From Actinomycetes bacterium (GTDB lineage: Bacteria > Actinomycetota > Acidimicrobiia > Acidimicrobiales > Acidimicrobiaceae), in contig JAJZXI010000002.1 of the NCBI GenBank assembly GCA_021806545.1, positions 1-64,000 of the forward strand: a stretch of DNA of 64,000 nt, written 5' to 3'. Positions 2,686-16,528 of the stretch are shown one piece after another (within the stretch, counting starts at the first letter, position 1; each line of letters starts with the position of its first letter). A program made the position numbers and the translations under genes. Under the pieces are notes generated by a model that saw only the letters and a program-made list of their open reading frames with translations, was not told the DNA's origin and searched no databases.

Positions 2686-3597
2686 CTAGCGATCTATCGA
2701 CACCTGCGTGCGGGGAACCAGCTTGGCCCGGTCCCAACCCGCCTCTCGAACCGCGTACGTGGCCTCGGGTTTCGTCGACACCGCCGCGTGCTCTCCGTTG
2801 GCAGCCAAGATCACGATGTGCATGATGAAGTTGTTCGACGACTCGACCAGATCTGCGAGGTCGCGAATCGCCGTGACTCCTGCCTCTTCGGGTGTCATTC
2901 CTTCCGCGAGGTATCGCACCACCATGCGCGCGGTCGATGCCCGGATGGACAGCTCGCCAAAGCCGGTGCACGCGGCTGCGCCGTAGCGAGAATCGCAGTA
3001 GTTGCCCGCCCCAATCACCGGTGAATCGCCGGCTCGGCCGGGCCATTTCCAGGCCCACCCGCTCGTCGAGACCGACGAGGCCATCGAGCCATCGTCGTTG
3101 AGGTAGAGGAAGTTCACGGTACCCGCGGCCTTCTCCGGGTCGGTGGTGAGTGCCAGGACCCGAGCGAGTGGATCCGCTGCCTCGCCGGGATCGAGCTGAT
3201 CAACTGCGTACTGCCAGGTCGCTCGAGCCGAGTCCGTGAGCAGGTCGGCCCCCTCGGCCCCAACTTCGTGGGCGAACTTCGCCGCCCCTTCGCCAACAAG
3301 GAGCACATGAGGTGAACGCTCCATCACCGCCCGGGCGACAGAGATGGGATGGCGATAGCCTGCAAGTCCCGCCACGCAGCCGGCACGCCGGGTGTCGCCA
3401 TCCATGATCGAGGCATCCAACTCGACCACGCCCTCGAGGTTTGGCAGACCTCCAGTTCCCACGCTGTGATCATCGAGGTTGTCTTCGACGAACCAGGCAG
3501 CGCGCTCGACCGCGGTCACCGGATCCAGTCCGCCCTCGACGTCCGCCCAGACTCCATCGATTCCGATGGCACCGTTGGCACTCGCAATCATCAACAC
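2686..3597 (-). CDS. Asparaginase/glycosylasparaginase-type Ntn hydrolase
   Basis: About 303 residues matching the N4-(beta-N-acetylglucosaminyl)-L-asparaginase / isoaspartyl peptidase family. These are autoprocessing Ntn hydrolases that release Asp or Asn from amide or isoaspartyl linkages. Visible motifs are IASANGAIGI at the start, NLEGVVELDASIMDG, the cleavage site AAGTVNFLYL (Thr would become the nucleophile), and GRAGDSPVIGAGNYCD with the conserved substrate pocket. The open frame starts at an ATG at 3618, but AAAGGAG lies just inside that extension and about 10 bases before a GTG at 3597, so 3597 is preferred. It is upstream of dppA and downstream of the binding-protein gene. The residues after the nucleophile (NFLYL) differ from the common G(M/A)VALD, so exact substrate class is open. 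Confidence 0.82.
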   Translation of the reverse strand: MLMIASANGAIGIDGVWADVEGGLDPVTAVERAAWFVEDNLDDHSVGTGGLPNLEGVVELDASIMDGDTRRAGCVAGLAGYRHPISVARAVMERSPHVLLVGEGAAKFAHEVGAEGADLLTDSARATWQYAVDQLDPGEAADPLARVLALTTDPEKAAGTVNFLYLNDDGSMASSVSTSGWAWKWPGRAGDSPVIGAGNYCDSRYGAAACTGFGELSIRASTARMVVRYLAEGMTPEEAGVTAIRDLADLVESSNNFIMHIVILAANGEHAAVSTKPEATYAVREAGWDRAKLVPRTQVSIDR

Positions 3598-3624
3598 CGC
3601 TCGTTTGCTCCTTTCCATGCACTC

Positions 3625-3695: not shown

Positions 3696-5543
3696 CTACT
3701 TCGTAAAGTACCAATCCTCCGGTGTGATGTACTCGTAGGGACTCTGCGGAGTTACGCCATGAAGATTCGAGGCGATCTCAGAGAGCTGCACATCGGGGGC
3801 GGGCTGATAGATGACCGGGAGATGCTTGGCCATGTAGTTCTGATAGGCGTCAAGTGCATTTTGGGCCTGCGCGCCCGAGGCGGTCAAGGTGGCGGCGATC
3901 AGTGTGTTGGCCGTCGATGAGTTGTAGCTTCCATTGTTCGACGCGGCGCCAGCAGCAAAGAGCGTCTCGCCGGATGGATAGTAGTCCGGTGAGTAGCTCC
4001 AACCACCTCCCCAGTTCGCCATCTGCCACGAACACGACGCCTGGGAAGGCGTGCAGGCCGCCGAATAGCTGATCACCCCGGCGAAGGGCGCCTGGCTCAG
4101 GTTGATCTTGATCCCCGCCTGGGCCGCGGCCGACTGGAACGCCGTCATCTCCTCTGTAACTGAAGTCAAACCTGAGATGTACTTGAGATTGAAGTTCATC
4201 ATCTGCCCACTCTTGACACCCGGTCCGCATTCGTTGGCCGCGCTTCCCGGCGTCACACAGGTCATGACCGTACCGACCAGCTTCCAACCATGGGAGGTCA
4301 GCAACTTCTTCGCGTTCGTCGGCGAATACGGGTACTGGGCCGTCCTCGAGACACTGTCGTCAAAGGGGTTGGGGGGGACCGTCGGGACCGGCGAATACGA
4401 AGGAGTTCCATAACCCTTGAGGAAGGTGCTCACCCATTGTGGCTGATCGACGAGCTCTTCAAGTGCCTGACGAACATAGAGCTGCTTAAAGATCGCCCCC
4501 ACCGTCGGGTTGTTGTAGTTCAGCGGTATGTAGTTGAAGCTAAAGATCTGCCAGGGCGCAAACTGATAACCCTCGCTCGCGACCCGTGCCTTCTGCGGTA
4601 GGTCAGTCACCGGTAGGTAGCCATAGCTGATGCTCGTTCCTGAACTCAACACGTTGAACTCCGCAGAGTCGGAGCTAAAAGGTAGCTCAACGAACTTGGA
4701 CAACGTCGGCTTTGGAGAACCGGAGTACTTGGTGTTCGGGACGAACACTGCTTTACCCTGGGTCGTAAAGCTGGTCAATCTCCAAGGACCATCCACCACC
4801 TGCCATAGCGGATTAGTTGCATACGTTGACAGGCTCGTTGCTGCAGCGTTCAAGAACTTGTAGACCGCCTGAGCGCCAGCCGTCGTAAGATCCGGAGCAT
4901 TGGGATCGGTTGCGCTCGGCGTCGGTGCGGTGGCCGAGGTCTTGTCCCACGCCAGTGGCAGCGGTACGAGCTGGGACAGCTCGTTATAGGTAAACCAGGT
5001 CGGGCTGTAGGACTTGTTCAGCTGCATCACGAACGTCAACGGCCCGGTCGCCTTGTACGAGACCACGTTATCTGGGAAGTAACCTGGTACATAGTCGAAC
5101 CATTGGGTCCTGTTTGCCTTCAACAGGTTCATCCAAAACACAAGATCTCGGGCGTCCACGGTCTCTCCATTGGACCACTTCCAACCCTTGAGTCGGATGG
5201 TAACCGTCCTGTTGTTGTTCGAATACACCGGCGCGTCCGCGAGCGACTGCGAGTAGTTGATCTGGGCTTTGCCATTGACACCAAAGAAATAGAGATTCCG
5301 GAACATGAGGGTGTCAAACTCATAGAGGTTGACGTTGGACTCATTTGCACCGCTCATAAGGGGAAAGATGTACGTCGGTGGCGACAAGGGTTGCTCGGCG
5401 AAGTAGGCAGTGCCTCCCTTGACTCTCGTCGTCGATGAACTCGAAGATGATGAAGATGAACTCGAGGCCGTCGACCCGCACGCCGCCAGCAACAGCACGC
5501 TAGCCGCAGAGACAGCCGCAAACTTGACCCAACTCGAACGCAT
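3696..5543 (-). CDS. ABC transporter substrate-binding lipoprotein, family 5 (peptide type)
   Basis: 615 residues. There is a lipoprotein signal: positively charged start MRSSWVK, a hydrophobic stretch and the lipobox LAACG. An uninterrupted poly-Ser run follows, which probably forms the linker to the membrane. The mature part matches the peptide/nickel/opine solute-binding family (SBP_bac_5): RLKGWKWSNGETVDARDLVF near residue 120 is the family hallmark, with LYVRQALEELVDQPQW and a C-terminal TPEDWYF. It would capture oligopeptides outside the membrane for an ABC importer, but no permease or ATPase gene is present in this window. The ATG at 5543 has a GGGGGACGGG leader. Being first in the minus-strand group with three peptide-degrading enzymes makes a peptide substrate likely. 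Confidence 0.88.
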   Translation of the reverse strand: MRSSWVKFAAVSAASVLLLAACGSTASSSSSSSSSSSTTRVKGGTAYFAEQPLSPPTYIFPLMSGANESNVNLYEFDTLMFRNLYFFGVNGKAQINYSQSLADAPVYSNNNRTVTIRLKGWKWSNGETVDARDLVFWMNLLKANRTQWFDYVPGYFPDNVVSYKATGPLTFVMQLNKSYSPTWFTYNELSQLVPLPLAWDKTSATAPTPSATDPNAPDLTTAGAQAVYKFLNAAATSLSTYATNPLWQVVDGPWRLTSFTTQGKAVFVPNTKYSGSPKPTLSKFVELPFSSDSAEFNVLSSGTSISYGYLPVTDLPQKARVASEGYQFAPWQIFSFNYIPLNYNNPTVGAIFKQLYVRQALEELVDQPQWVSTFLKGYGTPSYSPVPTVPPNPFDDSVSRTAQYPYSPTNAKKLLTSHGWKLVGTVMTCVTPGSAANECGPGVKSGQMMNFNLKYISGLTSVTEEMTAFQSAAAQAGIKINLSQAPFAGVISYSAACTPSQASCSWQMANWGGGWSYSPDYYPSGETLFAAGAASNNGSYNSSTANTLIAATLTASGAQAQNALDAYQNYMAKHLPVIYQPAPDVQLSEIASNLHGVTPQSPYEYITPEDWYFTK

Positions 5544-5805
5544 ATCCCGTCCCCCTTCACACGAGCACCCCTGCTCGCGTTAATCCGATGTTAGCGGCTC
5601 CTCCTCAGGTATGTAACCAATATTACAAATCGGATTGACAAATTTACTTTCCTTTCATAAACTGGCGCAGGGAGGATGTCGTGCTGGTGAGAACCTCCCA
5701 ACGACGTCTAGCTCTGGACCCAGCTCCCAGGCTCGCGCCGCTGGATCGGGTCCAGATCATCCACCTATCACAGGATCGAACAAATCAAGCACCCAAGGAG
5801 AACAG

Positions 5806-7923
5806 ATGAAGATGACCATTGTCGGGGCCGGGGCAATCGGCGGGATGCTCGGCGCTCATATGGTGGCAGCTGGTCACGACATCACCCTTTGTGACGCGGA
5901 TCGGGCCCACATCGACGCGATCCGTGCCAGCGGGCTCACCATTGAGGGTCCGATTGCGAACTTCACCGTCCATCCAACGGCGATCTACGACGACGAGCTA
6001 ACCGGCCAGCACGACTGTGTCATGCTCGCGGTCAAGAGCCATCACACCAAGATGGCTGCCTCCTTGATCGCTCCTCACCTCAGCTCGGACGGGGTAGTGC
6101 TCACCGTCCAGAATGGGCTCACGCTCGACACGGCTGCCCAGTTCATCGACCCTCGCCACATCGTGACCGCGTTCATCAATATCGGTGCCGATGTCATCGA
6201 ACCCGGTCGGATCCGTCAAGGCAACATCGCCGCCTTCTACGTCGGCGAGCCGCTGCTCAACGAGGTTACTGAGCGAGTCAACCGGCTTGTCGACGCGCTT
6301 CCCTACGCCAAGAGCACCACCAACATCCTCGGATTTCTCTGGGGCAAGGAGGCCTACGGTGCGATGCTCTACGCAGGTGCGGTGTCGGATCTCTCGATTG
6401 CAGACTCACTCTCTGACCCTCGTTACCACGATCTCATGATCGCGATCGCACGCGAGGTCCTCGATCAGGCACCCGTCAAGGCCGAGGGCTTTGACGGCTT
6501 CGAACCCGACGACCTCGAAGGATCCCTCGAGCGACTGGCAGCCTTCAACGCGGCGAGTGCCAAGACCCACAGCGGTATCTATCGCGATCTCATGGTGCGT
6601 CGGCGCCCTACCGAGGTCGCCGACCTCCTGCGCGATCTGTCGGGGCCACTGACCACTCACATCGGGCGCATCATCGAGGCCATCGAACGCAACGAACGCA
6701 CCTGCGAGGTCGCCAACCTCGACCTCGCAAACGCCTACTACCGGGCTCATCGCCTCGCGGAGCCGTTGCATGCGATCGTGCACTACCTCGAGGCTCCACG
6801 CCGAGCACCAACGGGACCATTGCATGGGTATCAGGTCGCGATCAAGGATATCATCGCCGTAGCCGGTACCCCTCTCGGTAACGGCAACCCGATCGATATG
6901 ACCGGCCCTCCCTCATCGACTGACGCTCCTATCGTCGCGACACTCCGTGAGGCCGGCGCCGACGTATTCGCCACCACGTCACTGCTCGAGTACGCCCTCG
7001 GCTCACCACATCCTGGGGTCCCCGAGGCTCGAAACCCTGTGGCCCCCGCGCTCGTTGCCGGTGGATCGAGCGGGGGATCCGCGGTGATCGTCGCCGTCGG
7101 CGCCGCTCAGTTGGCGCTCGGAACCGACACGGGGGGGTCGGTACGGATTCCCGCCCACTATTGCAATGTGGTGGGATTCAAACCAACCTACGGGCACCTC
7201 CCGATCCAGGGCATCACGCCCTTGGCACCGACACTCGATCACGTCGGTATCCTGGCCCGGGACGTGGCAACCACGATCCTAGGGTATCAGGCTCTCATGG
7301 GCAGCCCTGTGACTCATCCTGGCTCGCGCCGACCGCGCCTTGGCGTGGTTCGCACACAGCTCGCTACCGATCTCCTGGATCCCATCGTTGCTCAGGCCAT
7401 TCATCATGCGCTCGACCTCCTGACTATGGCGGGCTACGAACGCATCGAGCTGGCGCCAAGCCCCTTTGACCGCCTCGAGCTGGCCTTTGATCCCATCGTT
7501 GGCTATGAGGCCTATCAGATCCACGGTCCACTACTTGCGGCCGACCCTCAACACTTTGGCGAGGAGACCGCCCGCGTCCTTGGCCAAGCTCGTTCGATTA
7601 CCCAAGCCCAGTATCTTGGCGCCATCGAGGAGAAACGTGCGGCGTCGGTCGAACTGCTGGGCGTCTTTGATACCATCGATCTCATCGTTGGGCCAACATC
7701 ACCGATGGTTGCCCCCGGCCAAAACCCCTCCCTCGACACCCCGGAGGGCTACCTCGAGGGCATCATGACCCGGGTGTACAACCTGACAGGTCAGCCAGCG
7801 ATCTCCATCCCGATTCCCGGCTCACGCCTACCCGTCGGACTCCAACTGGCTGGCGCCAGGGGCCACGATGGGGAGGTACTCTGCTGGGCCGAGGAGATCG
7901 AACGCATCCTCGGCGAAAGTTAG
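5806..7923 (+). CDS. Fusion protein: ketopantoate reductase-like (ApbA/PanE) domain followed by amidase-signature domain
   Basis: 705 residues. ATG 5806 has AAGGAG five bases before it; the open frame upstream of it is not family-like. Residues 1-315 match 2-dehydropantoate 2-reductase: the Rossmann motif IVGAGAIGGMLGAH, the NQ-type motif LTVQNGL, and LWGKEAYGAM carrying the catalytic Lys. Residues about 325-705 match the amidase-signature family: VAIKD (catalytic Lys), AGGSSGGSA (cis-Ser) and GTDTGGSVRIPA (nucleophile Ser), then LIVGPTSPM and NLTGQPAISIPI. The two parts are joined without a stop or frameshift. The amidase part is about 380 residues, shorter than many single-domain amidases (450-500). 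NAD(P)H-dependent reduction of a 2-oxo acid and hydrolysis of an amide are the expected reactions; how they relate is unknown. It is divergent from the peptide-salvage group across a 260-bp promoter gap. Confidence 0.85.
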   Translation: MKMTIVGAGAIGGMLGAHMVAAGHDITLCDADRAHIDAIRASGLTIEGPIANFTVHPTAIYDDELTGQHDCVMLAVKSHHTKMAASLIAPHLSSDGVVLTVQNGLTLDTAAQFIDPRHIVTAFINIGADVIEPGRIRQGNIAAFYVGEPLLNEVTERVNRLVDALPYAKSTTNILGFLWGKEAYGAMLYAGAVSDLSIADSLSDPRYHDLMIAIAREVLDQAPVKAEGFDGFEPDDLEGSLERLAAFNAASAKTHSGIYRDLMVRRRPTEVADLLRDLSGPLTTHIGRIIEAIERNERTCEVANLDLANAYYRAHRLAEPLHAIVHYLEAPRRAPTGPLHGYQVAIKDIIAVAGTPLGNGNPIDMTGPPSSTDAPIVATLREAGADVFATTSLLEYALGSPHPGVPEARNPVAPALVAGGSSGGSAVIVAVGAAQLALGTDTGGSVRIPAHYCNVVGFKPTYGHLPIQGITPLAPTLDHVGILARDVATTILGYQALMGSPVTHPGSRRPRLGVVRTQLATDLLDPIVAQAIHHALDLLTMAGYERIELAPSPFDRLELAFDPIVGYEAYQIHGPLLAADPQHFGEETARVLGQARSITQAQYLGAIEEKRAASVELLGVFDTIDLIVGPTSPMVAPGQNPSLDTPEGYLEGIMTRVYNLTGQPAISIPIPGSRLPVGLQLAGARGHDGEVLCWAEEIERILGES

Positions 7924-9635
7924 CCTTGGGTCAGCGAAGCGATCCAGGACTCCACTACCGAGGCGAGCACACCGAGTGGGACCGCCCCCTGTCCGAGGAG
8001 CACACCGTGGAACTGGCGAATATCGAAGGCACTGCCGAGTTTTCGTTCGGCCTCATGGCGAAGTCGTCGCAGTTCGCGTCGCCCCACGAGATAGGCCGTC
8101 GCCTGAGCAGGCCAGCCGATATAACGATCGATCTCGTTACAGACGTTGGCCATGTTGGTGGCGCTATTTTCGAACATGAACTCGATCGCACGCTGTCGAG
8201 ACCAGCCATAGTAATGCATCCCGGTATCGACGACGCACCGGCTGGCCCGAAGAGCATCGAAGGAGAGCATGCCAAGGCGGGCCAGATCGTCACTATAGAG
8301 CCCCATCTCATCGGCGAGCCGCTCGGCATAGAGACCCCAGCCTTCAACGAAAGCACTCACTTCGGCATCGAGGTATCGACGAAACGCCGGTAACTCCTTC
8401 AAGGTCTGCGCCGTTCCAATCTGGAGGTGGTGGCCAGGTACGCTCTCGTGAAATGCCAGCGCTTCGTACTCGTAGCGAAACCGTTGTGTGGGAACGGTGG
8501 TCAAGACGCAGTGGGCGCCTGGCCGCGAACCGTCGTCCGAGGGCCCGCGATAGTACGCCAGGGCTGCGTTGTCAGCCTCAGCAGCCGAGATCTCCTCGAT
8601 CACGCAACGCGCAATCGGACGGTCGAGAAACCACTTGGGTTGCTCCCGTTCAGCGACCCAGAGCGCATGCGTCACGACATCAAGAATCTGTTGCCCGTTG
8701 TCGAAGCGCAGACGCAAGTCACCTCGCAGCCGATCAAAAAGATCCCTTCGATCGCGGATCCCAAAGACACGTGAGCCGATCTCGGCCCACTCGTCATCGA
8801 GTCTGGCAAGTGTCTCGAGGCCGAGCTGGTGGATCTCCTCCGGCGTCATCGCGGTAGTGGTATGGCGCCCCAGCGCCCGTGCGTAGAGCTCATCGCCACC
8901 CTCAATGGCACCGAGACCGACCTCATGGTCACCACGTGCGTGGCTCAGCGGATCGCCGGCAAGCTCATCGCGCAGCGCCGCAATCGCCGGCCAGATGCCC
9001 TCGTGCACCAGTGACCGGATCCGATCACGCTCGCCCTCAGAAGCGGCTGGGAGCTCGACGTTGATAAAGACATCGTGTGCGTCACCAAGCTCGAGGTGGC
9101 CATCGAGCTGCGCGATCGCCTGACGAACCCCAGCTGACGTGGAGAACTGACCCTGACGATCCGCTTGGCGATATCGCTCTCGGATCGTTGCGAAGAGCTC
9201 CGGTAAGTGTGCCAGCCGCTCCAGGTAGGCCTCAATGCCGATAGCGTCGACGAGCGGGGCGGTTGGGACCGTCTGAAAGATCCGCGCTTGCGGCGCCACG
9301 TAGCCGCCGGCTGAAATATTGCGCGCCCACAGCTCGTCCTCGAGTTCGGTACTCGTGCCAAAGGCGAGGGCGTCCATGACCTCCAAATTGATACGCTCCT
9401 CAAAGGCCAGATGCCTGCCGGTACCAGCGTCGTCGCCGAGCAGTGCTTCAATCCGCCTTTGGAGCGCACGATAACCCTCGACGGTCTCGAGTTCACCCGC
9501 TCGGGTGAGATCTGGGAGTTGGCCGTCGAAGGCGTGGAGACCGAGCTCCGTCGCCGTGAGTGGGTCCCGACCGTGCTTGTGCGCGAAGAACTCCTCGTTG
9601 AGGCTTGCTATCTCGGCCTTGACATCACGGTTCAT
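7920..9635 (-). CDS. DUF885 family protein (putative zinc metallopeptidase)
   Basis: 571 residues, typical for DUF885. The diagnostic motif FHESVPGHHLQIGTAQ (an HE-x5-HH arrangement) and FVEGWGLYAERLADEMG are both present, resembling the zinc site of M32/M3-like gluzincins. A peptidase function is inferred from the motif; biochemical data on the family are limited. There is no signal peptide, so it should be cytoplasmic. ATG 9635 is preceded by GAGGAGGAG. Its stop overlaps the stop of the convergent KPR-amidase gene. With the nearby DppA, M14 and Ntn hydrolases it adds to a peptide-degradation theme, though on its own transcript. Confidence 0.82.
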   Translation of the reverse strand: MNRDVKAEIASLNEEFFAHKHGRDPLTATELGLHAFDGQLPDLTRAGELETVEGYRALQRRIEALLGDDAGTGRHLAFEERINLEVMDALAFGTSTELEDELWARNISAGGYVAPQARIFQTVPTAPLVDAIGIEAYLERLAHLPELFATIRERYRQADRQGQFSTSAGVRQAIAQLDGHLELGDAHDVFINVELPAASEGERDRIRSLVHEGIWPAIAALRDELAGDPLSHARGDHEVGLGAIEGGDELYARALGRHTTTAMTPEEIHQLGLETLARLDDEWAEIGSRVFGIRDRRDLFDRLRGDLRLRFDNGQQILDVVTHALWVAEREQPKWFLDRPIARCVIEEISAAEADNAALAYYRGPSDDGSRPGAHCVLTTVPTQRFRYEYEALAFHESVPGHHLQIGTAQTLKELPAFRRYLDAEVSAFVEGWGLYAERLADEMGLYSDDLARLGMLSFDALRASRCVVDTGMHYYGWSRQRAIEFMFENSATNMANVCNEIDRYIGWPAQATAYLVGRRELRRLRHEAERKLGSAFDIRQFHGVLLGQGAVPLGVLASVVESWIASLTQG

Positions 9636-9794: not shown

Positions 9795-10493
9795 CTAGAA
9801 CAACGCACTGCCGCCATCGATCGAAAGCGTCTGACCGGTGATCCAACTGGCTCGCTCGGAAACGAAGAAGGAGACGCCATTGGCGATATCGCTCGCCTCG
9901 CCCAATCGTCGGAGCGCAATACCCTCCTTGAGTCGACGCTGACCCTCCGGACCATAGGACTCCCACTGTGCAATCGTCGTCGGGTTCGAGAGGACGAACC
10001 CTGGGGCGATCGCGTTCACGGTAATGCCGTAGGGACCGAGCTCGTGGGCCATCTGCCGCGTGAAGTTGATCTGGGCAGCCTTCGCGCTCGCGTAGGCCTG
10101 AATACCGGTGAGCGACACGCTTCTTCCTGCTCCGGAGGATATCGTGACGATCCTGCCCCAACCGCGCTGCTTCATCGAACTCACTACCGCACGCACGCAA
10201 TGAAAAGTCCCCGTCAGGTTCACGTCGACAATCGCGTGCCACTCCTCATCGGTCACCTCCTCAAGGGGCTTGTGCACCTGGCCAAGCACGCCACCCGCAC
10301 TGTTGACCAGCACGTCAATAGGGGGTGCGCTGTTGACAAAGCGCGCAACCGCGGCGGCGTCAGTCACATCCATCTCGTTGCGATCAGTTCGTAGCACTTC
10401 GAGACCATCGGCCTCGAGCAGATCCGCGATTGCCTGGCCGATACCCTGTGCCGTCCCGGTCACCAGCGCCACCGGCGTACGTGGTCGTCCCAC
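9795..10493 (-). CDS. Short-chain dehydrogenase/reductase (SDR), FabG-like
   Basis: 232 residues, a classical SDR. It shows the cofactor motif VTGTAQGIG, VLVNSAGG (NNAG equivalent), the catalytic Ser in VTISSGAGR, the YASAK active-site Tyr/Lys, and the C-terminal SWITGQTLSIDGGSA. It reduces or oxidises an alcohol/ketone with NAD(P)H; the substrate cannot be named. The GTG at 10493 has AAAGGAGGG about 8 bases upstream, and there is no upstream ATG in frame. It stands alone on the minus strand between the DUF885 gene and the NarL-type two-component pair. Confidence 0.85.
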   Translation of the reverse strand: MGRPRTPVALVTGTAQGIGQAIADLLEADGLEVLRTDRNEMDVTDAAAVARFVNSAPPIDVLVNSAGGVLGQVHKPLEEVTDEEWHAIVDVNLTGTFHCVRAVVSSMKQRGWGRIVTISSGAGRSVSLTGIQAYASAKAAQINFTRQMAHELGPYGITVNAIAPGFVLSNPTTIAQWESYGPEGQRRLKEGIALRRLGEASDIANGVSFFVSERASWITGQTLSIDGGSALF

Positions 10494-10658: not shown

Positions 10659-11291
10659 CTAGGAGTGGTAGAGCGCGCTGCGGTCGAGATAACCACGATC
10701 GATGGCCGCCACTACCGCCTGGGTTCTGCTGCTCACTCCCAGCTTGGCAAAAATTCGAGTAAAGTAGGTCTTGACCGTCGGCTCCCCGATCCCTAGCGCC
10801 TGGCCGATTCCCGTGTTGGTCGCGCCAGCAGCAGCCAGTTTGATCACCTCGAGCTCGCGCTGCGTCAGCAGGGCATCATGGGCCAGATCATAGGAGATTC
10901 GCGTGCTCAACGCCGTGGCGTAGTAGGTTTGTCCCGAGGCTACCCGCCGGATCGCATCAAAGAGCAGCGACTCCTCGACGTCTTTGAGAAGGTAGCCACG
11001 TGCCCCAGCGCCGAGCGCCGAGCGCACGAGCGCGGGTTCGTCGTAGGTCGTAAGTACGAGGGCATTCGCCCCGGTGCGATCCCGTATCCACGCGACGAGA
11101 CTCGATCCGTCCCCATCTTGCAGTTTGAGATCGCAGCAGACGACATCGGGGAGTTGCGCGGTGATGACCTGCTTAGCCTGGCCGATCCCACCGGCCTCAC
11201 CCACGACGCTGAGGTCGGGAGCCTTGGCCAAAATTCCCAACAGACCACGTCGAACAATCGTGTGATCGTCAACGATCACCACCCGGATCAT
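10659..11291 (-). CDS. NarL/LuxR-type response regulator
   Basis: 210 residues. The receiver domain (about 1-120) begins VVIVDDHTIVRRGL, with the phosphoacceptor Asp in VVCCDLKLQDG, LTTYD and the conserved Lys in GYLLKDV. The C-terminal LuxR helix-turn-helix (about 140-200) contains LTQRELEVIKLAAAG and EPTVKTYFTRIFAKLGV. It is a DNA-binding transcription factor phosphorylated by its partner kinase. Its ATG overlaps the stop of the sensor kinase by 4 bases, so the two are translationally coupled. The target genes are unknown. Confidence 0.93.
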   Translation of the reverse strand: MIRVVIVDDHTIVRRGLLGILAKAPDLSVVGEAGGIGQAKQVITAQLPDVVCCDLKLQDGDGSSLVAWIRDRTGANALVLTTYDEPALVRSALGAGARGYLLKDVEESLLFDAIRRVASGQTYYATALSTRISYDLAHDALLTQRELEVIKLAAAGATNTGIGQALGIGEPTVKTYFTRIFAKLGVSSRTQAVVAAIDRGYLDRSALYHS

Positions 11292-12592
11292 AGCGGTAAC
11301 CGTACCTGGATACGCGTGCCGACCTCAAGATTGCTCTCAATCGAGAAGTCGCCGAAGACCTGCTCTACCCGTCTACGCATGAGCTCAAGGCCAAAGTGCT
11401 CGCGACCGTCGGTCACGGCAGCGTCAAATCCAACTCCATCATCCTCCACCACCACGATCAAGGACCCCTCTTCTTCGATGAAGTCAAGGCGTGCAGTGTG
11501 CGCCCTCGAGTGTCTGATGATGTTGTTACCGACCTCACGGAGAATGAGTGTCATGCATTCGGTGGTACTGGCATCGAGGAGAAACTCCGTCGAGGGAAAC
11601 CGTTCGACGATAAGGTTGACGCCGCTGGAGTGAAGCTTATCTTTGAGCAGTTCCACCTCATCAGCTACCGAGGCGAGCGTCGTCGTGGGAAGCTGACCCT
11701 CGCGAATCACCGCGCGTGCCGCCTCTAGTGCCGTCTGTGCCGCCTCTTCGATCAACTCAGCATCGATCGAGCCGTCCTTGGCGCCACGCGCAATGAGCAC
11801 GATGCCGATGAGCTGCTGCGCGATGGTCTCATGTATCCGCGCCGCAAGCCGTTCACGCTCGTTGTTCTCGCCGATCTGACGGTAGAGCTCTGACAGCCTC
11901 CCTTGCGTCTTACGAAGTTCCTCTAGGCTCTTGGACAGATTTGCTTGCTGCTCAAGCAGTCGCGAGATGAACACCGCAACGAACGAGCCGGCAACGAAGG
12001 TCGGTACGAACCAGTCTGCAATCACGATGTAGGGGACGGTTGGGCGGGCAAGGGTATGAGAGAGAATCCCCACCATTCCCTCAATCCCAGCAACGGCCGG
12101 CAACGACGCGGGAAGCGGCATCGTCGCATAGACCAGGGCCGACACAGGCATGAGGAGATAACCCGCATTGGGATTCAGCGACGACGAGGTCGCCAAGATG
12201 ACGATCTGCGAGATGATGAGCAGCCACGGCCGAGTCTTGGACCGACCGAGTTGAGCAAAGATCGGCTGACCAATCGCAAACCAATCGAGCGCGGCCACCA
12301 GCTCCATACCCACAGCCCCGACCTGGCGAGCACCGGACGGGGAAGGGTAGACCAGCGTCATGATGACAGCGGCTGCGAACGACCCTAGGAAGAGCAGACT
12401 CCATACCCACTGTCCACCGCCGGGGACTATCTGCTCACCGCGACCGAACCATCTCATACCTGAATCGATGATAGCTGTTCTCGACACAAGTACTACGCTG
12501 GCGGCTCGCCTTCGACCCCTACCTAGCCTTTCGTACGCATCGCTCATGGCACTTTTTGCCAGTCGTTCCCTCTCGCGCAGCGTATTGGGCAA
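11288..12592 (-). CDS. Membrane sensor histidine kinase, NarL-system type (HisKA_3)
   Basis: About 434 residues. Several hydrophobic segments lie between about residues 60 and 230 and form a membrane sensor region without an obvious extracytoplasmic domain. A helical linker follows, then the dimerisation/phosphoacceptor region ERERLAARIHETIAQQL with the active His. The ATPase domain at the C-terminus shows LREVGNNIIRHSRA (N box) and VVVEDDGVGFD (G1). The start is uncertain: the TTG at 12592 has AAGGAGG about 12 bases upstream, while an ATG at 12547 lacks a clear ribosome-binding site. It is cotranscribed with the response regulator just downstream. Confidence 0.88.
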   Translation of the reverse strand: MPNTLRERERLAKSAMSDAYERLGRGRRRAASVVLVSRTAIIDSGMRWFGRGEQIVPGGGQWVWSLLFLGSFAAAVIMTLVYPSPSGARQVGAVGMELVAALDWFAIGQPIFAQLGRSKTRPWLLIISQIVILATSSSLNPNAGYLLMPVSALVYATMPLPASLPAVAGIEGMVGILSHTLARPTVPYIVIADWFVPTFVAGSFVAVFISRLLEQQANLSKSLEELRKTQGRLSELYRQIGENNERERLAARIHETIAQQLIGIVLIARGAKDGSIDAELIEEAAQTALEAARAVIREGQLPTTTLASVADEVELLKDKLHSSGVNLIVERFPSTEFLLDASTTECMTLILREVGNNIIRHSRAHTARLDFIEEEGSLIVVVEDDGVGFDAAVTDGREHFGLELMRRRVEQVFGDFSIESNLEVGTRIQVRLPL

Positions 12593-14265: not shown

Positions 14266-14796
14266 GCCAAGAGTTTAGCACCGGATACGAGCGAACGCGT
14301 CTTCATACATGGATACGACTACCACTCAGATACGAGCGGCCCTCGCGCCCCAGCAACGGCGGTACCATAGCCAATCAGCAATGCTAGCCCAGCGAGACGA
14401 TTGGCCGGCAAAGGCAGCACACAACGTGGCAGTTGTCCGCCTTTCGATCAGGTGCCTCGCGGTTCGGAATATGGGCCGATCCGATCGCGTACGCCACCTT
14501 AGCGCCCAGGCGCTGCCGATATGTCGTCGTCCACCCAAGCGAGTGTCCACCTGGTCGCAGGCTGTTGCACCGGGAGAATACAGCCGTGATCGGCACGCCA
14601 CGCAACGCGCAGTATCGGCTCGACGTTGACGGAGGTGAGTTCTCACTCGAGCCTCGCTACCAGAGCACTTGGGCCTCGTTGCGCAAGCGCATCGTCGTCA
14701 CAATGGAGGCACCAGAACCTGACGATTTGCTGAGTCGCTCCTTGTATTCGACGTCTGGTGTGATAGGGTAGGCGTGCGCAAGGGAGGTTGAACAGC
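14266..14796. other. Intergenic region, nothing recognised
   Basis: This 530-base gap separates the divergent GT87-like gene (minus) and the YbjQ-like gene (plus), and must contain both promoters. The open frames within it read as shadow translation with no known domain. AGGGAGG at 14781-14787 is the ribosome-binding site of the downstream gene. Confidence 0.5.
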
Positions 14797-15696
14797 GTGG
14801 CAGATTGGGATGGCCGGGGTTTACCGCCGGCCGCACAGCGCAGAGTTGAGTCGGCAGCAGCCTCGACTCTGCGGTCATCGCTGCTCTCGATAACCTCGAA
14901 TACGGGCATCGAGTCCGTTGGCTATCGGCCAGTGAGCGAGGTAATGGGGAGTGTAGTGCTGGGTACCTATGGGGCGGTCATGCCCTCCTGTGGGGTTTAC
15001 AACCAGGGCTACGGATCGCCGTTCGGCTACAACCCCGGGGTACGCATGGGCAGCGGTCAACAGTTTTACGGTGGCTACGAGCCCTACGTTGACGTGATCA
15101 ACCGGGGCTGGACGGTTGCGATGAACCGGATGCTCGCCGAGTCCAAGGCGGTCGGCGCCCACGGGGTGGTTGGGATACAGCTCACCCAGGCCCGCTTTGA
15201 GGGTGGCGCGATCGAGTTCATGGCGATGGGCACTGCCGTGCGTTCAACGGTGGTGAAGGATCACCATGGGCGCGACATTTTTACCACCCACCTCGATGGT
15301 CAAGACGTCTCCAAGCTACTCCATCACGGCTGGATGCCCGTTCGGCTCATCGTCGAAGTCACTGTCGCGGTCCGCCACGACGACTTCAACACCTTGAACC
15401 AGGGGTCGATGTTCGCACCCAATGCCGAGCTGACGGGTTTTAGCGAGCTTTCCAACTCAGCTCGTTCCTCCGCGCGGCAGAGTCTGCGACGTCACCTCAA
15501 GCCCAATGCCGAGGTTGGGGTGATCATTGACTCTCTCGATGCGAACATCTTTAGAAACGAGATGGGCCAGGGTCACTCCGATCACCTCTGCGAGGTGCGA
15601 ATCGTTGGTACGACCATCGCACAATCCGGCCCATCGGAGACCCGCATGGAGCCACTTCCGATCATCTATTTGAAATCAAGAAAGACAGGAGCATAA
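14797..15696 (+). CDS. YbjQ-like (UPF0145/DUF74) two-domain protein, first of a pair
   Basis: About 299 residues. GTG 14797 was chosen because GGGAGG ends 9 bases before it; the TTG at 14788 directly abuts that site. The first domain (about 35-145) has the family features IESVGYRPVSEVMGSVVLGT, AMNRMLAESKAVGAHGVVGI and EFMAMGTAV. A long Gly/Tyr insert between them (YNQGYGSPFGYNPG) is unusual. The second domain (about 155-290) starts THLDGQDVSKLLHHGW and aligns in order with the second domain of the next gene, but has diverged and lost the GAdgIvGV core. YbjQ-type domains form pentameric beta structures of unknown role, sometimes annotated as heavy-metal-binding. No membrane segment or signal peptide is visible. 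Confidence 0.78.
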   Translation: MADWDGRGLPPAAQRRVESAAASTLRSSLLSITSNTGIESVGYRPVSEVMGSVVLGTYGAVMPSCGVYNQGYGSPFGYNPGVRMGSGQQFYGGYEPYVDVINRGWTVAMNRMLAESKAVGAHGVVGIQLTQARFEGGAIEFMAMGTAVRSTVVKDHHGRDIFTTHLDGQDVSKLLHHGWMPVRLIVEVTVAVRHDDFNTLNQGSMFAPNAELTGFSELSNSARSSARQSLRRHLKPNAEVGVIIDSLDANIFRNEMGQGHSDHLCEVRIVGTTIAQSGPSETRMEPLPIIYLKSRKTGA

Positions 15697-15700
15697 CAAC

Positions 15701-16528
15701 ATGGCCGACGAGACCCTCGATCCACAGCAGCTTGGTGTGCCTGAAGACGCTATTCGGCGTCTCCAGGAGATGCGGCCTGGGCAGGCAACCTCCCTTTTTA
15801 CGTCGGACCTGTCGGTGAACGAATTTCTACTCGTCCGCGAAGCGGGCTTTCGACCACTCGGACTGGTGTTCGGCTCTTCGATCTATCACGTGGGAATCCA
15901 GGTAGGACGCTGGAGCTCTAACCAAGAGCTTGACAAGCTCACTTCGGCTATGTACCACGCTCGCGAGCTTGCCATGGAGCGGATGCAGTCCGAGGCAGAG
16001 GTGCTAGGAGCCGATGGTATTGTTGGTGTCCGCCTTGATGTCGAGTTCAAGGAATTTGGCAACGACATTGCCGAGTTCATTGCGGTCGGCACCGCCGTCA
16101 AGGCCGACGACACCTCGATTAACTGGCAAAGCGCAGGCCGCCCCTTCACCTCGGATCTGAGTGGTCAGGACTTTTGGACTCTGCTCCAGTCAGGCTATGC
16201 ACCTCTCGGGATGGTGATGGGCACGTGCGTCTATCACATTGCCCATCAGGGAATGCTAAAGTCCATGGGAAATTTTGGTCAAAATACTGAGATTCCCGTC
16301 TTCACCGAAGCGCTCTACGATGCTCGCGAACTCGCCATGAGCCGCATGCAGGCCGAGGCAGAAGCGCTCCATGCTGAGGGTATCGTTGGTGTAAAGCTGC
16401 TTGCGCTGCCACACCAGTGGGGCGGTCATACGACGGAGTTCTTCTCCATCGGTACCGCCGTACACCCCCTGCGGGACAACCACATCATCGCAAAACCTCA
16501 GATGGTGTTGCCACTCACCGACTTCTAG
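15701..16528 (+). CDS. YbjQ-like (UPF0145/DUF74) two-domain protein, second of a pair
   Basis: 275 residues, starting 4 bases after the preceding stop with ACAGGA upstream, so cotranscribed. Two YbjQ-like domains stand in tandem. The first (about 30-140) reads TSDLSVNEFLLV, GFRPLGLVFGSSIYHV, AMERMQSEAEVLGADGIVGV, EFIAVGTAV. The second (about 150-265) reads TSDLSGQDFWTLL, GYAPLGMVMGTCVYHI, AMSRMQAEAEALHAEGIVGV, EFFSIGTAV. The internal repeat is clear at protein level. A heavy-metal-binding or oligomeric scaffold role is only suggested by family annotation. No Cys-rich metal site is seen; single Cys/His residues (GTCVYHI) are possible ligands. Confidence 0.82.
   Translation: MADETLDPQQLGVPEDAIRRLQEMRPGQATSLFTSDLSVNEFLLVREAGFRPLGLVFGSSIYHVGIQVGRWSSNQELDKLTSAMYHARELAMERMQSEAEVLGADGIVGVRLDVEFKEFGNDIAEFIAVGTAVKADDTSINWQSAGRPFTSDLSGQDFWTLLQSGYAPLGMVMGTCVYHIAHQGMLKSMGNFGQNTEIPVFTEALYDARELAMSRMQAEAEALHAEGIVGVKLLALPHQWGGHTTEFFSIGTAVHPLRDNHIIAKPQMVLPLTDF

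Follow-up and report, generated by a model that had tools for sequence, protein, structure and literature searches.

In the ketopantoate reductase (KPR) PanE, the 2'-phosphate of NADP is bound by Arg31, and in the amidase-signature enzymes FAAH and malonamidase E2 the two serines of the Lys-Ser-Ser triad are 24 residues apart. The substrate of PanE is contacted at its hydroxyl by Asn180 and at its carboxylate by Ser244 (PMC3478992). Also described are NADH-dependent D-mandelate dehydrogenases of the KPR fold (3wfi/3wfj/5x20, 8wl1) and, in Pseudomonas GM79, the PipR/AapA-F loci for uptake of peptide-like signals, in which a peptide ABC importer stands beside cytoplasmic peptidases (PMC4981722). 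KPR and amidase are both large known families, and the sequences discussed here are already in public genomes. A KPR fused to an amidase was not found described in the literature searched (most subscription journals lay outside the search), in line with the view of the initial annotation that no characterised protein has this domain order; a search for KPR together with amidase, creatininase, D-aminopeptidase or isoaspartyl peptidase returned nothing relevant.

The window, i.e., the whole stretch of 64,000 nucleotides analysed, encodes such a chain, with the following signals and domains.

5795–5800, + strand: Shine-Dalgarno sequence AAGGAG, exact, 5 nt upstream of the ATG at 5806.
5635–5663, + strand: TTGACA-17-TAAACT, promoter-like, between the two divergent genes, consensus match only.
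5806–7923, + strand: KPR-amidase fusion gene, 705 aa, single open frame with ApbA and Amidase domains; fused orthologs exist.
5806–6702, + strand: KPR-fold dehydrogenase domain, residues 1–299, from Pfam and fold matches.
6646–6768, + strand: helical join, residues 281–321, without disordered linker, from the AlphaFold2 model.
6697–7917, + strand: amidase-signature domain, residues 298–704, from the Amidase match (232 bits) and the structural match to malonamidase E2.

Translation of 5806–7923 (+) gives 705 codons free of stops; the strand opposite is interrupted by them. The AAGGAG ahead of the ATG at 5806 is the only such match within the window, and one match of the TTGACA-17-TAAACT type was observed vs. 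0.6 expected from shuffles. The single uninterrupted reductase-amidase frame proposed by the initial annotation is confirmed: a stop hidden between the domains was looked for in 5806–7923 and none occurs, and the genes of close relatives are fused, not split. Fused orthologs are present in all six genomes of the same genus (74–79% identity; one cut by a contig end), with a seventh in another genus of the same family (51% identity). An origin of the fusion in assembly or sequencing errors has a negligible chance, the reading being refuted by the same uninterrupted fusion in independent genomes of several families.

Pfam places ApbA (PF02558) at residues 4–148 of the protein (97.7 bits) and Amidase (PF01425) at residues 333–692 (gathering score 27); ApbA_C, at residues 190–272, stays sub-threshold (19 bits vs. 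a cut-off of 22.7). Structural alignment lets the amidase fold begin at about residue 298, vs. the annotated Pfam start at 333. In the AlphaFold2 model of the whole chain (mean pLDDT 90.8, pTM 0.88), helices 281–294 and 302–321 connect the two halves. The best fold match of the KPR half is an archaeal KPR (5ayv; Z 33 over 282 residues); an NADH-bound D-mandelate dehydrogenase follows at Z 31 (D-mandelate dehydrogenases overall, Z 28–31), and opine dehydrogenases score lower (Z 19–22.5). The combination by which the ApbA/KPR superfamily is recognised, a Rossmann ApbA domain with a helical C-terminal domain, is present. Of the complete reductase that had been claimed, the ApbA fold and the catalytic residues are borne out, but the C-terminal lobe of the KPR domain is reduced in length compared with unfused relatives, with alignment gaps of about 9, 3, and 9 residues. 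For the amidase half the best structural match is malonamidase E2 (Z 53 over 394 aligned residues, 28% identity).

The active-site and cofactor-site residues are the following.

5893–5895, + strand: Asp30, closing beta-strand 2, adjacent to the position of PanE Arg31, invariant in alignment A3.
6112–6114, + strand: Asn103, equivalent to PanE Asn98, kept in 28/28 relatives.
6346–6348, + strand: Lys181, equivalent to the catalytic Lys176 of PanE, kept in 28/28.
6613–6615, + strand: Glu270, equivalent to PanE Glu256, kept in 28/28.
6844–6846, + strand: Lys347 of the amidase triad, conserved across fused orthologs.
7066–7068, + strand: Ser421, amidase cis-Ser, conserved across fused orthologs.
7138–7140, + strand: Ser445, amidase nucleophile, conserved across fused orthologs.

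The amidase triad is intact (K347-S421-S445), as had been noted earlier, and Ser421 and Ser445 show the 24-residue spacing of FAAH and malonamidase E2; the C-terminal half is predicted to be an amidase-signature amide hydrolase. For the KPR half, 28 relatives were compared in an alignment with PanE of E. coli (sequence from L132). Lys72, Asn98, Lys176, and Glu256 of PanE are kept in all 28, as Lys77, Asn103, Lys181, and Glu270. This Lys/Asn/Glu set is of the 2-hydroxy-acid enzyme type and speaks, together with the better fold matches of KPR and D-mandelate dehydrogenases (Z 28–33), against an opine-type dehydrogenase that would split an N-carboxyalkyl amino acid while the amidase removes a side amide; opine dehydrogenases do have the same fold (1bg6, Z 22.5; pseudopaline dehydrogenase, Z 20), and we hold this reading to be quite doubtful.

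The positions of PanE Asn180 and Ser244 are both occupied by Gly in 28/28 relatives; Asn194 is replaced by Ile/Met, Asn184 by Phe/Tyr, and Asn241 by Thr/Ser. No conserved Arg is found among the relatives in the column of PanE Arg31, and Asp is also found at the Asp30 position in the D-mandelate dehydrogenase of L. brevis (8wl1). Because the invariant Asp30 ends beta-strand 2, where an acidic residue is typical of enzymes that use NAD(H), the KPR half is predicted to use this cofactor, this one residue position being the basis; the NADPH-oxidation assay suggested by the initial annotation is probably the wrong choice, since Asp30 points to NAD(H). Against TIGR00745 (2-dehydropantoate 2-reductase) the fused protein scores 116 bits, below the curated cut-off of 141.35; the unfused relative L071 scores 153. 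The bacterium's own genome (95% complete) yielded no match to panB or panC, and the only full-length ApbA domain in this genome is that of the fusion; therefore, the KPR domain here does not serve pantothenate synthesis. The proposed link to pantoate or pantothenate amides is not supported, on the same ground and given the two Gly replacements, and the importer beside the gene is of the peptide type; although 2-dehydropantoate 2-reductase is the named family to which the N-terminal half comes closest, such a substrate is very improbable.

The genes around the fusion are listed below, with their frequencies in 28 fused loci with wide flanks; closely related species are included, so that these counts are not independent.

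3696–5543, − strand: peptide-type solute-binding protein (SBP_bac_5), transcribed divergently from the fusion; solute-binding protein in 25/28 loci.
2686–3618, − strand: Asparaginase_2 Ntn hydrolase (N4-substituted Asn or beta-aspartyl type); 24/28.
1767–2594, − strand: peptidase M55, D-aminopeptidase family; 25/28.
830–1660, − strand: AstE/AspA-type deacylase, start codon not settled; 9/28.
7920–9635, − strand: DUF885 protein, convergent with the fusion; 3/28.
9795–10493, − strand: SDR dehydrogenase; a partner type also found beside unfused KPR genes in other phyla.

The fusion is thus divergently transcribed from the peptide-salvage genes, as first described. Among the fused loci, ABC ATPases occur in 24/28, permeases in 23/28, a zinc alcohol dehydrogenase in 12/28 (in place of the SDR in most Streptosporangiaceae loci), an SDR in 9/28, and a methylaspartate ammonia-lyase in 14/28; one locus, L055, has none of the partner genes. 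The nearest solved relatives of the Asparaginase_2 protein of locus L041 are glycosylasparaginases. The methylaspartate ammonia-lyase clears the TIGR01502 equivalog cut-off (533 vs. 286 bits); genes for it near M55 and Asparaginase_2 (L065, 5–1255, − strand; L043, 1–432, − strand) were unexpected in a peptide-salvage set. In bins of Pseudonocardiales (L054, 6570–9082), a thiamine-pyrophosphate enzyme and, by eye, a putative 5-oxoprolinase subunit C gene are encoded downstream of the fused gene. Elsewhere in the window, two tandem ORFs at 14788–16528 each carry a YbjQ heavy-metal-binding-like domain, a protein with CBM2 cellulose-binding domain matches lies at the edge (30–497), and a LuxR-type response regulator and a histidine-kinase-like ORF lie at 10659–12592 (− strand).

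Our proposal, with close to an even chance of being right, is a catabolic enzyme of two functions, in which a 2-hydroxy-acid dehydrogenase that uses NAD(H) is joined to an amide hydrolase, both halves working on the same small compound. The N-terminal half would be a KPR-fold NAD(H)-dependent 2-hydroxy-acid dehydrogenase and not a ketopantoate reductase. The compound that the halves would share may be the amide of either a 2-hydroxy or a 2-oxo acid and would stem from an atypical peptide taken up by the cell; the amidase half would liberate the acid or its terminal amide, the dehydrogenase half would convert the 2-hydroxy and 2-oxo form into each other, most probably in the oxidative direction with NAD+, and the product would then enter central metabolism. 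Breakdown of an alpha-hydroxy or alpha-oxo amide, already suggested by the initial annotation, is our best guess, and the channelling that it suggested may accompany it. The D-aminopeptidase, beta-aspartyl-type hydrolase, and methylaspartate ammonia-lyase among the neighbours suggest unusual aspartyl or D-amino peptides as the source; malamate-type half-amides, methylaspartyl peptides, and 2-hydroxyacyl peptides are guesses at candidate substrates. Characterised members of the KPR family are mostly known for reduction, and the KPR half might accordingly clear 2-oxo amides or acids as a reductase and not act as an oxidase; we consider this unlikely, as the loci are catabolic, with importers and peptidases, and the predicted use of NAD(H) favours oxidation.

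Fused copies were detected by a scan of species genomes in Planotetraspora, Microbispora, Streptosporangium, Nonomuraea, Amycolatopsis, Acidimicrobiaceae, and Dormibacterota, and on one contig labelled Acidobacteria. An apparent split gene in Acidobacteria (L068) was rejected, its break being a run of N in the contig. In Streptosporangiaceae, the family of Microbispora, strong matches were obtained in 19/150 genomes, mostly fused and of full length; contig ends or one stop interrupt a few of them, and in genome G479 of this family, a TAG lies within the KPR part. Among 396 evenly drawn genomes of the phylum, the fused form was found only in the window's own genome; the fusion is rare across the phylum and concentrated in some families. 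All 25 fused rows of the KPR tree fall in one clade (support 100/100); the fusion arose once and has been retained across groups of Actinomycetota and in Dormibacterota. Both halves are under purifying selection and neither is decaying, since dN/dS, calculated for the window against relatives of its genus, is 0.05–0.08 for the KPR half and 0.11–0.14 for the amidase half.

A locus in Microbacteriaceae (L069, 2404–3770) encodes the amidase alone, with the same peptide-ABC gene set and order and without a KPR domain; the halves are therefore separable. In the amidase tree this single unfused close relative is nested inside the fused group, and the KPR half was probably lost there. Both this locus and the faster evolution of the amidase than of the KPR half would suit domains that serve different steps or substrates of one peptide-salvage programme, fused only for co-expression or fixed stoichiometry and with no compound in common. 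Such a division of labour is unlikely, however, given that the fusion has been retained since its single origin and that unfused KPR relatives also adjoin an amide hydrolase.

These unfused KPR orthologs (39–49% identity) are found in Gemmatimonadota (14/150 genomes) and on plasmids of Deinococcus and Rhodobacterales. Their gene order is creatininase, KPR, SDR, and then usually an M20 dipeptidase or deacetylase; many loci add RraA, an M32 carboxypeptidase or an isoaspartyl peptidase, and a peptide ABC or APC transporter accompanies the set. The creatininase-KPR-SDR set was seen at L081 (8240–15539), L084 (8293–13531), and L104–L112 (Deinococcus, Rhodobacterales, Gemmatimonadota), and no paper describing it was found in the literature searched, most subscription journals being outside. 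A Neorhizobium locus has KPR and SDR only, and a Roseomonas locus KPR alone; D. peraridilitoris has creatininase, KPR, and a separate amidase within one stretch. A strict replacement of creatininase by amidase is ruled out by the fused loci L066 and L121, which additionally keep creatininase. Because unfused KPRs in three further phyla adjoin an amide hydrolase of the creatininase family, the pairing of KPR with hydrolase is general and the fusion one form of it; what recurs throughout is a KPR-type dehydrogenase accompanied by an amide hydrolase and by another dehydrogenase, close to genes for peptide transport. More tentatively, a catabolic pathway for atypical peptide-derived amides may extend across Actinomycetota, Dormibacterota, Gemmatimonadota, Deinococcota, and Rhodobacterales, its KPR-type NAD dehydrogenase being coupled to an amide hydrolase in two ways, through fusion with an amidase in one lineage and elsewhere through a shared operon with an enzyme of the creatininase family.

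Plasmid records call the unfused KPRs '2-dehydropantoate 2-reductase' and assign them to pantothenate biosynthesis. Many such genes are likely annotated as ketopantoate reductase; for this subfamily the evidence points instead to a dehydrogenase of catabolism, linked to the hydrolysis of amides within gene clusters for peptide uptake. Their fusion gives a direct hint of joint action by dehydrogenase and hydrolase, and from a loosely defined gene cluster it draws a two-step reaction that can be tested on a single protein.

Among the known systems, the PipR/AapA-F loci share with the fused loci the importer beside peptidases; among solved structures, AapF comes closest to the binding protein of locus L041, and a proline-iminopeptidase-like hydrolase occurs in 7/28 fused loci. 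Ketopantoate reductase and amidase are unmentioned in PMC4981722, and the similarity is a lead, not membership. PanE/ApbA (TIGR00745, PF02558) is alike in fold and in the catalytic Lys/Asn/Glu, plus Lys72; its Asn180, Ser244, Asn194, and Arg31 are not kept in the fusion subfamily, and the fusion differs further in scoring below the TIGR00745 cut-off, in being joined to an amidase, and in belonging to a genome without a panB or panC match. The D-mandelate dehydrogenases are alike in the KPR fold and, in 8wl1, in the Asp at the end of beta-strand 2, but are single-domain structures of about 20% identity and have Asn at the PanE Asn180 position, where the fusion has Gly. Malonamidase E2 and other amidase-signature enzymes (PF01425) share the full amidase fold and the Lys-Ser-Ser triad; from malonamidase E2 the fusion is set apart by an identity of 28% and by an amidase that stands behind a dehydrogenase.
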